From Nitrospirota bacterium (lineage in GTDB: Bacteria > Nitrospirota > Thermodesulfovibrionia > Thermodesulfovibrionales > SM23-35), in NCBI GenBank assembly GCA_014859105.1, contig JACUUX010000022.1, positions 1-41,890 on the forward strand: a stretch of 41,890 bases of DNA. The letters run 5' to 3'. The translations under genes were made by a program, and so were the position numbers. A model generated the notes under the pieces. That model ran no database searches and was not told the origin of the DNA. It saw only the letters and a list, made by a program, of their open reading frames with translations. Of the stretch, positions 6,834 through 41,843 are shown in pieces (the first letter of the stretch is position 1; every line of letters begins with the position of its first letter).

Positions 6834-7394
6834 ATGCAGAATAGAAAAAGATTAAAACTTATTTTTCTGATATTGTTCTTAACGGCATTTATCTTTTATA
6901 TTGTTTATGAAGATTCTCCGGTTTCTTCCCAGCCTGAGAGCAATACACTGTTAGCTGTCGCTGAGGTACATGACGGAGATACAGTAAGTGTGATGCTCAA
7001 CAATAAAAAGGAGAAAGTGAGACTGATAGGAATAGATGCACCTGAAATAGGACAGAGACCCTGGGGTAAACGTGCAAAAAAATATCTGGAGAATATATTG
7101 AGTTCTTCAGGATGGAGAGTAAGACTGGAATTTGATGTTGAGCAAAGAGATAAATATGGTCGGGTCCTTGCTTATATGTGGACAAAAGATGGTAAAATGG
7201 CCAATCTCTTAATGGTTGAAAACGGATATGCAATGCTTTTTACAGTACCGCCAAATGTGAAATATACTAATGAGTTGAGGGTTGCACAGAACGAGGCAAG
7301 GAAAAAAGAGCTTGGAATATGGAGTAGAAAAGGTTTGAAGGAAAGGCCGAGTGATTATAGAAGAGAACACGAGAGACAAAATCTGATATACTAA
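6834..7394 (+). CDS. staphylococcal nuclease-like (thermonuclease) protein, membrane-anchored or secreted
   Basis: The 186-residue protein has an N-terminal hydrophobic segment (residues 8-24) after several lysines and arginines, which fits a signal peptide or anchor. The SNase OB-fold domain follows: VHDGDTVSV, then VRLIGIDAPEIGQRPWGKRA with catalytic Arg63 and Glu71, then DKYGRVLAYMW with the third catalytic arginine. It should cut DNA or RNA outside the cytoplasm in a calcium-dependent way. It is 5 bases upstream of the RNase J gene and is probably co-transcribed with it. Confidence 0.9.
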   Translation: MQNRKRLKLIFLILFLTAFIFYIVYEDSPVSSQPESNTLLAVAEVHDGDTVSVMLNNKKEKVRLIGIDAPEIGQRPWGKRAKKYLENILSSSGWRVRLEFDVEQRDKYGRVLAYMWTKDGKMANLLMVENGYAMLFTVPPNVKYTNELRVAQNEARKKELGIWSRKGLKERPSDYRREHERQNLIY

Positions 7395-38299: not shown

Positions 38300-38333
38300 C
38301 CCGCTTACTGAAATGAGTAGGCGGGCTTTTTTT
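38300..38333 (+). terminator. intrinsic terminator before the DGR
   Basis: CCCGCTTACT pairs with AGTAGGCGGG (one G-T wobble) around GAAATG, followed by C and seven Ts. It separates the ispG-side transcript from the DGR promoter that begins two bases later. Confidence 0.88.
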
Positions 38334-38334
38334 C

Positions 38335-38363
38335 TTTACATGCTCGGTGGTTTCCGTTATAAT
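38335..38363 (+). promoter_or_regulatory. sigma70-type promoter of the DGR
   Basis: TTTACA at 38335-38340 and a perfect TATAAT at 38358-38363 are separated by 17 bases. Transcription would start near 38370 and run through a leader of about 300 bases into avd, the first target, the RT and the second target. Confidence 0.8.
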
Positions 38364-38397
38364 AGCAAAAAGCTACTGATTCTTCGCGGGGGAAGAA

Positions 38398-38556
38398 GTG
38401 GGGGAAAATACAAAAAAGACATTTCTTTATCGTCTCAATGGTTTTTCTGTTAGCGGGAGTAGAATGTTTGGCATAATGATTGCTCAGTCAGTCAGTCAGT
38501 CAGTCAGTCAGTCAGTTTTTATATTATATAGCAGAAAAAGAAATATCAGACTTTGA
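38398..38556 (+). other. possible leader ORF containing the CAGT tract
   Basis: GTG at 38398, preceded by a purine-rich GGGGGAAGAA, opens a 52-codon frame that passes through the CAGT repeats (AQSVSQSVSQ) and stops at TGA 38554-38556, one base before the terminator-like hairpin. Loss of one CAGT unit would join it to the frame open to TAA at 38660-38662, 8 bases before the avd ATG. The overlapping +2 frame reads KRHFFIVSMVFLLAGVECLA before a stop, like a signal-peptide relic. Translation of any of these is unproven. Confidence 0.3.
38485..38516. repeat. tetranucleotide repeat (CAGT)8
   Basis: Eight perfect tandem copies of CAGT, 32 bases, lie in the DGR leader between promoter and avd. Tetranucleotide tracts of this length change copy number by polymerase slippage in other bacteria and cause phase variation. 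Confidence 0.95.
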
Positions 38557-38557
38557 A

Positions 38558-38593
38558 GGCATGGCGTTTAATGTAAAGCGCTATGCCTTTTTT
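38558..38593 (+). terminator. terminator-like hairpin in the DGR leader (possible attenuator)
   Basis: GGCATGGCG at 38558-38566 pairs with CGCTATGCC at 38579-38587 (one G-T wobble), followed directly by six Ts. It sits after the promoter and before avd, so transcripts may end here unless the hairpin is prevented from forming. Confidence 0.65.
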
Positions 38594-38617
38594 GTTCCTG
38601 CTCATAACGCCTCACAA

Positions 38618-38641
38618 CCCCCTCTTAATCTTAAGAGGGGG
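38618..38641. repeat. perfect 11-bp palindrome before avd
   Basis: CCCCCTCTTAA, TC, TTAAGAGGGGG. It is related in composition to the palindromic element inserted in rtcA. In RNA it would make a very stable hairpin about 30 bases before the avd start. Confidence 0.85.
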
Positions 38642-38670
38642 CGAGTGGGGGTTAATGCCTAAGGTTGAGG

Positions 38671-39039
38671 ATGGCGCGATATGAGCATCTGCCAATATAC
38701 AAGAAGGCTATCGATCTTGCCGTTTATATTGAAAATGTGGTCAGAGGCTTCTCGCGGTATCATAAGTACACGATCGGTGCCGACCTGCGGAACCTCTCCC
38801 GTGAGGCCATCAGGCTCATCATATCGGCAAATTCAAGGGAAGAAAAACTTAATACGCTGAGGTCTCTGAGAGATACAATCGAACAATTGAAGGTGACGAT
38901 CAGAATATGCAAGGAGGTGAAGGCATTCAGGAGCTTCAATTCCTTCCAGCAGGCTGCCGAGTGGGTAGTTGACCTTGGCAGACAGAGCGAGGGGTGGATC
39001 AGAAGCGTAAAACAGAAGAAGAGAGCAACAGTGCAATAG
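38671..39039 (+). CDS. avd: DGR accessory variability determinant (Avd)
   Basis: The 122-residue protein starts MARYEHLPIYKKAIDLAVYIENVVRGF and is all helical, ending in a basic tail. This matches Avd, the four-helix protein that forms a pentamer, binds the DGR reverse transcriptase and template RNA, and is needed for cDNA synthesis. Avd is related to the 23S rRNA intervening-sequence protein family, and such proteins start in the same way, but the neighbouring RT and variable proteins make Avd the right call. ATG at 38671 has AAGG upstream; a TTG at 38665 is possible. It is 19 bases before target 1. Confidence 0.88.
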   Translation: MARYEHLPIYKKAIDLAVYIENVVRGFSRYHKYTIGADLRNLSREAIRLIISANSREEKLNTLRSLRDTIEQLKVTIRICKEVKAFRSFNSFQQAAEWVVDLGRQSEGWIRSVKQKKRATVQ

Positions 39040-39058: not shown

Positions 39059-39784
39059 ATGAGAACAACAATGGCATCATCGAGAAAATGTGAGTCTATC
39101 TTGTATGTCATGCCGAACTTGATCCGGCATCCGTTGTTTTTTTGGTTTGCCCGATCAGCAGGTCGGCCAATAATGAATTGTATAAATGTAAGCTCACTAT
39201 GGAGCTTTTGCATTGCTGTGGCGTTGCTGTGCTTTTGTCTTGTTGCCCCCTCCGATGCCTTCAAGCTCCCCGACACCGGCCAGACGAAGTGCTATCAGGG
39301 CGTATATCCGTATGCCGAAATCCCCTGCGAGGGGACAGGGCAGGATGGGGAGTACAACATCAATCCTCTTTCCTATACTGACAACGGCAACGGCACGGTA
39401 ACTGACAACAACACCGGCCTTATGTGGCAGGAGCAGGATAATGGCAACACTTACAACTGGTACAAGGCTTCCGGTACTTATGACGCTACATATAACCCGT
39501 CGTCAGAAAGCGTCTGCGGCTCTCTTACGCTCGGCGGCTTTTCAGACTGGCGCTTGCCGACAAAAAAGGAACTCATTACAATTGTTGACTACGGTATTCC
39601 GTATCCGGGTCCAACAATCAAAACGACTTACTTCCCGAATACAAAATCGTCCAACTATTGGTCGTCTACCACGTACGCCTACTATCCGGACTACGCGTGG
39701 GGCGTGGGCTTCTACAATGGCAGCGTCTACTACGGCTATAAGGACTACTACCTCTATGTGCGGTGCGTGCGGGGCGGACAGTGA
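39059..39784 (+). CDS. DGR target protein 1 (DUF1566/Lcl domain variable protein)
   Basis: The 241-residue protein has a hydrophobic segment around residues 46-66 (LWSFCIAVALLCFCLV) that should act as a signal peptide after an unusually long N-terminal extension. The DUF1566 domain follows: YTDNGNGTVTDNNTGLMWQ, FSDWRLPTKKELITI and YWSSTTYA. Its last 43 codons are the variable region. DUF1566 proteins of this type are known DGR targets with a C-type-lectin-like ligand fold, displayed outside the cytoplasm. ATG at 39059 has a perfect AGGAGG. The extension includes NLIRHP, encoded by a dispersed DNA repeat. The stop overlaps the RT start (GTGA). Confidence 0.9.
   Translation: MRTTMASSRKCESILYVMPNLIRHPLFFWFARSAGRPIMNCINVSSLWSFCIAVALLCFCLVAPSDAFKLPDTGQTKCYQGVYPYAEIPCEGTGQDGEYNINPLSYTDNGNGTVTDNNTGLMWQEQDNGNTYNWYKASGTYDATYNPSSESVCGSLTLGGFSDWRLPTKKELITIVDYGIPYPGPTIKTTYFPNTKSSNYWSSTTYAYYPDYAWGVGFYNGSVYYGYKDYYLYVRCVRGGQ
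39106..39135. repeat. half copy of the GTCATTCC-family repeat in target 1
   Basis: GTCATGCCGAACTTGATCCGGCATCC resembles the left half of the element at 9087 and forms a small hairpin (GCCG/CGGC). It is in frame inside the N-terminal extension of target 1, giving VMPNLIRHP. Confidence 0.65.
39653..39781 (+). other. variable region VR1 of the DGR
   Basis: These 43 codons at the end of target 1 align with VR2 (41571-41702). Over the first 25 codons the two differ at 12 bases, all at codon positions 1 or 2 of codons ending in C or T, and none at position 3. The last 27 bases (from TATGTGCGG to GGACAG) are identical and GC-rich, as expected for the initiation-of-mutagenic-homing site. Variable codons fit an AAC/AAT template changed at adenines. 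Confidence 0.9.
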
Positions 39785-39927
39785 TAGATTTCTTTGACAA
39801 CTTGATGATTTTTCTGGTAAACAGACAGAGCGGGAAAAGGTCGAAGAGCCGTCCTTCGAACAGGCCGGAATTGTTGATGCACCATGCATTGGCGAGTGAG
39901 CCTATGATCACTGTGCGCCCCGCACGC
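39765..39927. repeat. 21-nt inverted repeat spanning the RT start
   Basis: The sequence at 39765-39785 (GCGTGCGGGGCGGACAGTGAT) matches the reverse complement of 39907-39927 at 20 of 21 positions. The 5' arm holds the end of VR1, the GGGGCGG that could serve as Shine-Dalgarno, and the GTG start of the RT. The 3' arm encodes ITVRPAR within the RT. Confidence 0.85.
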
Positions 39928-41265
39928 CCTGTCTGCTTTGTAGCCAAACAGCCGAAACCGAGGGAGATATTTGCAGCCGATTTCAGGGACAGGGTGGTGC
40001 ATCATCTCCTTGTCCCGCATATTGAAAAGATATTCGAGCCCCAATTCATCCATGACTCCTATGCCTGCAGAAAGGACAAGGGTACCCATGCTGCTGTGAA
40101 ACGACTGAAGTATTTCATGAACCGCGTTACGAAGGGCGGCCATGTGGCTGCATGGTTCATGCAGCTTGATATCAGAAGTTTCTTTATGAGCATAGACAGG
40201 GAGATCCTTCTTGACATCCTTTTTCGACATTTACGTGATGACAGGCTGACTGCCCTTGCAAAAAAGGTCGTATTGCAGGACTGCACAAAAAACTTTGTAT
40301 ACAAGGGCGATCGCCGCCTCCTTCAGGGGATACCTCAGCATAAGTCTCTTTTTCATATTCCCGCAGGCAAGGGGCTGCCTATCGGAAATCTCACATCCCA
40401 GTTCTTCGGCAATGTCTATCTCAATGAGATGGACCAGTTTGTGAAGCATACGTTGAAGGTGCGGTATTACCTCCGGTATGTGGATGACTTTATCCTCCTT
40501 GATCCGGACAGGCAGCGGCTTATCGAACTAAAGGAGAAGATAGGCGAATTCCTGGATAAGCGGCTGGCCCTTTCGCTGAAAGAGGAGGCGACGCTCAGAC
40601 GAGTCTCTGAGGGCGCGGATTTTCTCGGCTACATCGTGAGGCCGGATTATGTCCTTGTGCGCAACAGGGTGGTCGGAAACCTCGGGGCAAGGCTCAGGAG
40701 CTTTCATGAAGAGATGGTCCAATATCCGAAGGTGAAAGAACAGCAATTTATCCGTATCCATCTTCGTGAAGAAAAAGTCCGGAAGCTCAGACAGACGCTT
40801 GCATCATACCTGGGACATTTCAAGCACGCTAATGCATACAGGCTGATACGCAGCCAGTTTGAGAAATACCGGTATCTGAAATATATCTTTGCCGTAGATG
40901 ACAAAGAGCGGCTTCTACCGATGTACGAGCCGCCGTTTGAGCCTGCAACGCTGCGGGGACAGTATACGTGGGTGGCTAAACAATACGGCGACCACTGCAT
41001 CTTTTTTCAGGTTGGAAGCTTCTGTGAGTTTTATGGCGCACAGGCAGAGCGCTACGGCCGGTTCTTTGGGCTTAAACCGCTGGCGGAAACGAGGATGTGC
41101 GCTACTCAGTGCGGGTTTCCGGTGCGGTATCTGAAAGACTTCAAGACAAAGACCTTTAGTGAAGGGATGCCGTATGTAGTTGTTTCTGAACGGGGCTATT
41201 ACCCTTCGGGTTTAAAGAAAAGAGTGATCTCGGAGATATTCAGAATGGAAAGGAGAAGAATATGA
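39781..41265 (+). CDS. DGR reverse transcriptase with C-terminal MutS-like domain
   Basis: This enzyme copies template RNA into adenine-mutated cDNA that replaces the variable regions. Starting at GTG (overlapping the target 1 stop as GTGA) it has 494 residues. Numbered from that GTG: KPREIFAADFRDRVVHH near 60, HDSYACRKDKGTHAA near 92, catalytic Asp in QLDIRSFFMSID near 130, the DGR-type GLPIGNLTSQFFGN at 198-211, and YVDD at 233-236. A thumb and linker follow. Residues about 393-470 resemble MutS domain I, with Phe-Cys-Glu in QVGSFCEFYG where MutS has its Phe-X-Glu mismatch probe. An ATG at 39877 is an alternative start that would still keep the RT core. Confidence 0.93.
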   Translation: MIDFFDNLMIFLVNRQSGKRSKSRPSNRPELLMHHALASEPMITVRPARPVCFVAKQPKPREIFAADFRDRVVHHLLVPHIEKIFEPQFIHDSYACRKDKGTHAAVKRLKYFMNRVTKGGHVAAWFMQLDIRSFFMSIDREILLDILFRHLRDDRLTALAKKVVLQDCTKNFVYKGDRRLLQGIPQHKSLFHIPAGKGLPIGNLTSQFFGNVYLNEMDQFVKHTLKVRYYLRYVDDFILLDPDRQRLIELKEKIGEFLDKRLALSLKEEATLRRVSEGADFLGYIVRPDYVLVRNRVVGNLGARLRSFHEEMVQYPKVKEQQFIRIHLREEKVRKLRQTLASYLGHFKHANAYRLIRSQFEKYRYLKYIFAVDDKERLLPMYEPPFEPATLRGQYTWVAKQYGDHCIFFQVGSFCEFYGAQAERYGRFFGLKPLAETRMCATQCGFPVRYLKDFKTKTFSEGMPYVVVSERGYYPSGLKKRVISEIFRMERRRI

Positions 41266-41843
41266 AGAGGAGGTTTATCTTATTGTTTGTGATGTCGGCA
41301 GCATTATTGTGCTCAACGGTGACAATGGCTGCGCCGTTTACGGACAATAAAAATGGAACAGTTACGGACAACAGGACCGGCCTTATATGGCAGCAGGGGG
41401 AACCGGGTTGGATGATATGGCCGTCCGCACTGGATTATTGCAATGGGCTTACACTCGGGGGCCACTCAGACTGGCGCCTGCCGAACATCAAGGAGCTCGA
41501 GTCCTTAACGGATGATGAAAGATACCATCCTGCGATAGATACCAATTTCTTTCCGAATGCTTATGCGTCCTACTATTGGTCGTCTACCACGTACGCCAGC
41601 GATCCGGGCTACGCGTGGATCGTGGTCTTCAGCTATGGCTGCGTCTACGGCTACTATAAGTACGACTCCTACTACTATGTGCGGTGCGTGCGGGGCGGAC
41701 AGTCTGGGTTATTTGGGAATTTAGAAGTTTCTCCTTCATCCCATGATTTTGGAGAGGTAGAGGTAGGAACATGTTCGTTAAATCCGCAGGTATTTGCTTT
41801 AGGTAATTTTGGCGATGGCGAAATCAATGTTTCGATGATATAA
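41262..41843 (+). CDS. DGR target protein 2 (DUF1566 domain), probably 3'-truncated
   Basis: The 193-residue protein has a clear signal peptide (MKRRFILLFVMSAALLCSTVTMAA). Its DUF1566 domain (FTDNKNGTVTDNRTGLIWQ, HSDWRLPNIKELESL, YYWSSTTYA) ends in variable region VR2 at residues about 104-147. Unlike target 1, the chain continues with LEVSPSSHDFGEVEVGTCSLNPQVF, the start of an immunoglobulin-like ASPM/choice-of-anchor domain, and stops early at about 40 residues. Such domains are normally about 90-100 residues, so the gene looks cut. The ATG overlaps the RT stop (ATGA) and has GGAG upstream. Confidence 0.87.
   Translation: MKRRFILLFVMSAALLCSTVTMAAPFTDNKNGTVTDNRTGLIWQQGEPGWMIWPSALDYCNGLTLGGHSDWRLPNIKELESLTDDERYHPAIDTNFFPNAYASYYWSSTTYASDPGYAWIVVFSYGCVYGYYKYDSYYYVRCVRGGQSGLFGNLEVSPSSHDFGEVEVGTCSLNPQVFALGNFGDGEINVSMI
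41571..41702 (+). other. variable region VR2 of the DGR
   Basis: These 44 codons align with VR1 but have one extra codon in the Tyr-rich stretch before TATGTGCGG. Changes sit in NNC/NNT codons (AGC, GAT, GGC, ATC, GTC, TGC, TCC). The GC-rich 3' end is identical to VR1. Here the protein continues after the variable region. Confidence 0.88.

Follow-up and report, generated by a model that had tools for sequence, protein, structure and literature searches.

A CAGT repeat array in the leader of a Nitrospirota diversity-generating retroelement, a candidate slippage-tuned attenuator

Diversity-generating retroelements (DGRs) are mutators, and little is known of the means by which bacteria keep them in check. 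The locus described here raises the question whether the expression of one such element could be set by the length of a short tandem repeat. It lies near the end of the window, the 41,890-nucleotide stretch that we analysed (positions 1 to 41,890, forward strand, of contig JACUUX010000022.1, assembly GCA_014859105.1, from a Nitrospirota bacterium of the order Thermodesulfovibrionales), where a leader with a perfect CAGT array and a terminator-like hairpin precedes avd, the first gene of a DGR operon. The leader is real and conserved and, judging from the sequences compared below, is most likely a slippage-tuned attenuator. Loci and genomes are referred to by L and G numbers, respectively.

The top-scoring tandem repeat of the window in TRF (Tandem Repeats Finder) was a perfect TCAG tract of 8.2 copies (38484-38516), written here as (CAGT)8.25, which equals (TCAG)8T. 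Nowhere else in the 3.16 Mb genome do four perfect CAGT units occur in a row, and (CAGT)4 was present in four of 61 genomes, this one among them. The tract is sited between avd and a sigma-70-type promoter matching at 11 of 12 positions, which none of 100 shuffled sequences equalled. Since no further sigma-70-like site was listed from 38364 up to avd, avd transcripts should cross the hairpin that follows the array. The stretch containing this hairpin (38540-38600) has a predicted energy of -24.4 kcal/mol (z -5.98), and none of 200 shuffles folded as well. No forward frame of the array contains a stop codon, each of the three reads Q-S-V-S, and in a scripted frame check the frame opened by the GTG at 38398 ended at 38531 with 6 or 9 units, at 38556 with the present 8 units and at 38662 with 7 or 10 units. 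Thus, promoter, leader open reading frame (ORF), hairpin with T run and operon follow each other in this order, and the leader ORF contains a repeat whose four-base unit is not divisible by three and whose number shifts the stop relative to the hairpin. These results bear out a preliminary description of the DNA, which had noted the tract between a strong promoter and avd, the hairpin with six Ts, and the frame, reached by losing one unit, that passes through the hairpin and ends eight bases 5' of the avd ATG. The same description had the eight-unit frame stop one base before the hairpin; the stop is indeed at the hairpin, but it overlaps the first two hairpin bases.

We consider it probable, if well short of certain, that this region is the 5' leader of the DGR operon and works as a slippage-tuned attenuator. 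A constitutive promoter would give a leader RNA carrying a short, translated ORF, and since (CAGT)n inside it encodes Q-S-V-S in every frame, n would only select the frame that follows. An early-stopping frame would leave the hairpin free to form and end transcription, a frame stopping at the foot of the hairpin would place a terminating ribosome where it can block the hairpin, and the through-frame would carry the ribosome across the hairpin to a stop beside the avd start, giving read-through plus translational coupling. If n varies within a population, gain or loss of a single unit would take a cell from one of three outputs (low, high, high-plus-coupled) to another. The variation in unit number known here is between loci and species, in orthologs and paralogs: two paralogs in G113 have 10.5 and 7.5 units between flanks identical at 140/150 and 141/150 positions, leaders of PAS kinases have 12.25, 2.25 and 7.25 units, and the DGR leader has 8.25 units in the window and 3 in G005.

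The layout recurs in relatives from two orders. A search for avd gave matches in 23 of the 230 genomes of the class, and upstream sequence was read for 19 avd loci, those that local tblastn could place. Besides the window, a CAGT array lies 5' of avd or an avd remnant in G005 (L091, L103), G335 (L148, L095) and G170 (L150, L114). Furthermore, G335 carries the leader L080, followed by an avd remnant, and L081, followed only by a start-like GAGGATGG, and G170 has a further leader, L047, 5' of a putative avd remnant; the remnant calls at L080, L081 and L047 are our own reading of the sequences. At the other loci of the 19 no CAGT array was seen, avd there standing after another gene (mostly Lcl_C) or having little upstream sequence available. 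Unit numbers among the relatives and the window are 3, 7 and 8.25, and hairpin sequences differ; L148 and L080, both from G335, keep the position of the hairpin with different hairpin sequences. Six loci (the window, L091, L148, L080, L081 and L047) have the three-frame layout, in which the early-stop frame ends 10 to 15 nt past the array, the foot-stop frame 28 to 40 nt past it and within 4 nt of the hairpin start, and the through-frame between 9 nt before and 13 nt after the next ATG. When the hairpin was kept and the remainder shuffled, using criteria set after the data had been seen, this triple gave p values of 0.0065 for the window, 0.011 for L091, 0.037 for L148 and 0.045 for L047; with one locus per lineage the product was 1e-5, under the same post hoc criteria and assuming independence. 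At present the frame ends in a foot stop in the window, L081 and L047, in an early stop in L091, L148, L080 and L149, and in the through position in L150.

At L149, a locus of G113 with avd and a reverse transcriptase (RT), the array (7253-7322, minus strand) consists of (AGTCACA)10 instead of CAGT. It too is stop-free in three frames, of which the present one stops at once and another runs to +172, ending inside the avd start. The seven-base unit occurs in two of the 230 genomes, elsewhere in G113 and once in G156. The former includes a further heptanucleotide array, L168; the latter (L160) was set aside as seemingly unrelated, standing before an ATP-synthase-like gene set as read from translations without a family search.

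CAGT arrays also recur class-wide 5' of same-strand genes, among them genes for secreted proteins and sensors. (CAGT)5 was found in 12 of the 176 genomes of the order, at 17 loci if an array split by an assembly gap is counted once, and about 30 sites, including pattern-found and homologous ones, were compared. The genes downstream include Lcl_C, ShlB/FhaC, NHL, RCC1, PQQ and beta-helix proteins, PAS kinases, response regulators and dCache sensors; those at L039, L046 and L078 had no Pfam match when scanned. Of 29 sites, 9 had a sigma-70-like promoter that scored better than shuffled sequence at p <= 0.05. In their present state, the leaders of L049, L083 and L078 end at a stop codon overlapping the start of the gene. 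One frame of L040-L045 and L079 ends S/T-G-V/I-P-P-TGA (SGVPP-stop), and the last 12 codons of these leaders vary in 6, 2 and 10 columns at codon positions 1, 2 and 3, respectively (L085, which has a shifted relic, was excluded from this count). This pattern of codon-level selection is evidence that the SGVPP-stop leaders are translated, and their conserved SGVPP-TGA end is a possible ribosome-arrest peptide. Rfam models, run over the window leader and 20 loci of relatives, found no match above a gathering score. One site, L078, is on a viral contig, with a perfect TGGCAC-N5-TTGC and 8.75 CAGT units just 5' of the gene and a leader stop that overlaps the start (ATGA).

The operon downstream of the window leader runs avd, target 1, RT, target 2 (Table 1). 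Its variable repeats (VR1 and VR2), both in Lcl_C genes, are 84% identical. Thus, RT, Avd and a variable repeat in a target gene are present; a template repeat was not found in the genome assembly of the window. In G335, L148 is an orthologous DGR with leader, avd, Lcl_C with variable repeat, template repeat, RT in two blocks and Lcl_C with variable repeat. Its template repeat, retained between target 1 and RT, mostly carries A at the sites that distinguish it from the variable repeats, and the window counterpart (39785-39930, compared with L148 5360-6032) is without the repeat. Because the template repeat is not in the window assembly but is present in this ortholog, we describe the window cassette as a DGR by descent, possibly disabled; the repeat may have been lost by deletion, or collapsed in assembly between near-identical repeats. 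The match to the RT of L148 (5043-4775) is split into two blocks about 270 bases apart, so that this RT may be interrupted. A search of genome contigs for RT found distant relatives only. The end of the window RT (40957-41166) matches MutS domain I (PF01624; 26 bits, over the cut-off). Just 5' of avd lies a palindromic interspersed repeat with a CCCCCTCTTAATCTTAAGAGGGGG core, of which several genomes of the family carry copies (L002, L010-L013).

Table 1. Features of the leader and the DGR cassette in the window.
Feature	Position	Strand	Evidence and remarks
Intrinsic terminator of preceding transcription unit	38300..38333	+	10-pair hairpin, then T run
Sigma-70-type promoter TTTACA-N17-TATAAT	38335..38363	+	11/12 matches, 0/100 shuffles as good; directly after the terminator
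Shine-Dalgarno-like GGGGGA 5' of leader start	38388..38393	+	GGGGGA also precedes ATG in G005; scored test not significant
Leader ORF, present 8-unit state, 52 aa, GTG start	38398..38556	+	In-frame ATG at 38464; start codon at corresponding site in G005 (L091)
TGGCATAATGATTGC, GG-N10-GC motif, sigma-54 -24/-12-like	38469..38483	+	Abuts array; TTGC 17/17, GG 14/17 in arrays found without the motif
(TCAG)8T array	38484..38516	+	Stop-free in 3 forward frames, Q-S-V-S in each
Through-hairpin frame, 7 or 10 units	38517..38662	+	Stop 38660-38662, 8 nt 5' of ATG 38671
Early stop, 6 or 9 units	38529..38531	+	Scripted frame check; about 24 nt 5' of hairpin
Foot-of-hairpin stop, 8 units	38554..38556	+	Scripted frame check
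Terminator-like hairpin	38555..38590	+	Six Ts at 38588-38593
Palindromic interspersed repeat	38601..38656	.	Copies elsewhere in the window's genome and in its family
avd	38671..39039	+	PF22296 bAvd, 55.4 bits (cut-off 40); NCBIfam Avd 52.4, below its cut-off of 80
Lcl_C (DUF1566) target protein 1	39059..39784	+	VR1 ~39648-39782
Reverse transcriptase ORF	39763..41265	+	RVT_1 60.7 bits (over cut-off); MutS_I-like C-terminus; true start probably downstream of 39763
Lcl_C (DUF1566) target protein 2	41262..41843	+	VR2 ~41566-41703

Several observations weigh against attenuation by a translated leader. GGGGGA precedes the GTG in the window, but over 29 sites the Shine-Dalgarno test was not significant: this signal together with a start codon beat shuffles (p <= 0.05) at five, with a mean p of 0.47. 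The layout triple did not reach significance at L080 (p = 0.15) and L081 (p = 0.10), L150 is without a foot stop, and L148 and L080 have no T run immediately after the hairpin. A simple coding test of the through-frame failed, in that the differences between the window and L091 were spread 11/11/11 over the codon positions, so that this frame shows no amino-acid selection. The hairpin of L149 was no better than chance (z 0.4), and only the coupling half of the model is therefore supported there. Lastly, a GG-N10-GC motif before the arrays, independent of reading frame, is not explained by the leader-ORF model. The phase-variable attenuation proposed in the preliminary description is thus supported in part: it gains from the recurrence of the layout in two orders, once with a seven-base array, from the codon selection in the SGVPP leaders and from the experimentally established precedent of pil1 considered below, and is weakened by the start signals and the GG-N10-GC motif.

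This motif was near-invariant. At the 17 arrays found by the repeat alone, G stands at -25 in 15 and at -24 in 16, A or C at -22 and T or C at -21 in all 17, and the letters are constant whatever the frame. The pattern GG-N8-TTGCTCAGTCAG had 14 sites in 8 of the 176 genomes versus none for a reversed control; outside the class it was near the reversed-control level, except for L065, L078 and perhaps a few more. The window has GG-N10-GC with TGGCAY-N5-TTGC, which we take to resemble a sigma-54 element, and a sigma-54 gene is present in the genome (193.7 bits). CAGT arrays in viral contigs (28 contigs, of which the 27 other than L078 were read) represent another context and were rejected as comparisons; TTGC precedes none of 28 further arrays in such contigs. 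GG-N10-GC may be a second promoter with its transcript start inside the array.

Both signals could operate: a sigma-70 transcript would carry the translated, phase-variable leader, and a sigma-54 transcript from inside the array would bypass leader translation, so that regulated and random control would meet at one hairpin. This explanation, which contains and overlaps the attenuator, has in its favour that both motif sets occur at the window and several relatives; either motif alone might be functional, however, and we regard it as possible but unlikely. A doubtful alternative makes the array solely the start region of a sigma-54 promoter: transcription would begin near 38495 with CAGU repeats, n would tune the length of the 5' untranslated region or promoter escape, and the leader ORF would be incidental. 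The frame-independent motif, its absence from the reversed control and the viral arrays, and the sigma-54 gene all speak for such a promoter, and for a time it seemed the better reading; it lost ground once conservation of the frame layout at avd loci became apparent, for it leaves that layout and the SGVPP codon signature unexplained, and no such motif stands at the seven-base array of L149. That the tract arose by chance in a leader that is decaying and has no regulatory role, with an ordinary terminator as the hairpin and avd silent or served by its own unseen promoter, would suit the missing template repeat and the broken avd of several relatives, but is quite improbable given that the layout persists in two orders and in DGRs whose avd is intact, and that arrays recur class-wide before same-strand genes.

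Returning to the slippage-tuned attenuator, we extend it tentatively, giving the whole of the following somewhat less than an even chance: the DGR itself would be a contingency locus whose expression depends on slippage within an attenuator leader that two orders have retained and that arose also with another unit. This leader would belong to a group of QSVS leaders, spread over the class, that gate secreted or surface proteins and their sensors, possibly with a sigma-54 start inside the array. If the leader is an attenuator of the kind proposed, chance slippage would determine in which cells surface proteins are diversified, a further level of bet-hedging in addition to hypermutation, and the leaders of the wider set would form a phase-variable regulon in bacteria hardly studied for phase variation.

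The proposed mechanism is of a known kind. In Streptococcus gallolyticus pil1, GCAGA repeats in a leader ORF move its stop relative to a premature terminator, and mutations of the leader start and of the hairpin had the predicted effects; expression is high when the stop lies 4 bp before the hairpin or beyond it, and isolates with a stop at least 28 nt before it have a mostly-low profile (PMC3894217). Since a foot stop in pil1 gives high expression, the present eight-unit state, implied to be OFF in the preliminary description, is more likely ON-like. By the same precedent, 7 or 10 units would likely be ON and coupled and 6 or 9 units OFF-like, the roughly 24 nt to the hairpin being a borderline distance. 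The leaders of pil1 and pil3 share with the window a promoter, a leader ORF whose repeat unit is no multiple of three bases, a hairpin with T run, a unit number that sets the stop relative to the hairpin, and surface structures downstream (PMC3894217). The window differs in its unit (CAGT, or seven bases in L149, versus GCAGA), in an array that is stop-free and reads QSVS in all frames, in an operon that is a DGR, and in a through-frame ending at the avd start, which suggests coupling; it is known here from sequence alone. The preliminary description knew of no DGR with this control. The mechanism is known from pil1; no repeat-gated DGR leader was found in the open-access literature searched, which is weak evidence of absence, and the use on a DGR and the class-wide spread appear new.

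Other likenesses are partial. The cassette shares Avd, RT and variable repeats with DGRs of the Bordetella phage type, as well as adenine-specific changes relative to the template repeat in the ortholog L148, but its targets are Lcl_C proteins, its RT has a MutS_I-like end and no template repeat was found in the window. The Pro-Pro-TGA ending of L040-L045 and L079 resembles Escherichia coli tnaC, a leader arrested at the termination stage; this ending belongs to sister leaders and not to the window's own, and arrest there is a candidate property. Haemophilus influenzae mod and lic are tetranucleotide contingency loci with the repeat inside the coding gene. Like them, the window leader would combine tetranucleotide slippage with frame switching, AGTC being a rotation of CAGT, but its repeat lies in a leader before the gene and not in the gene itself.
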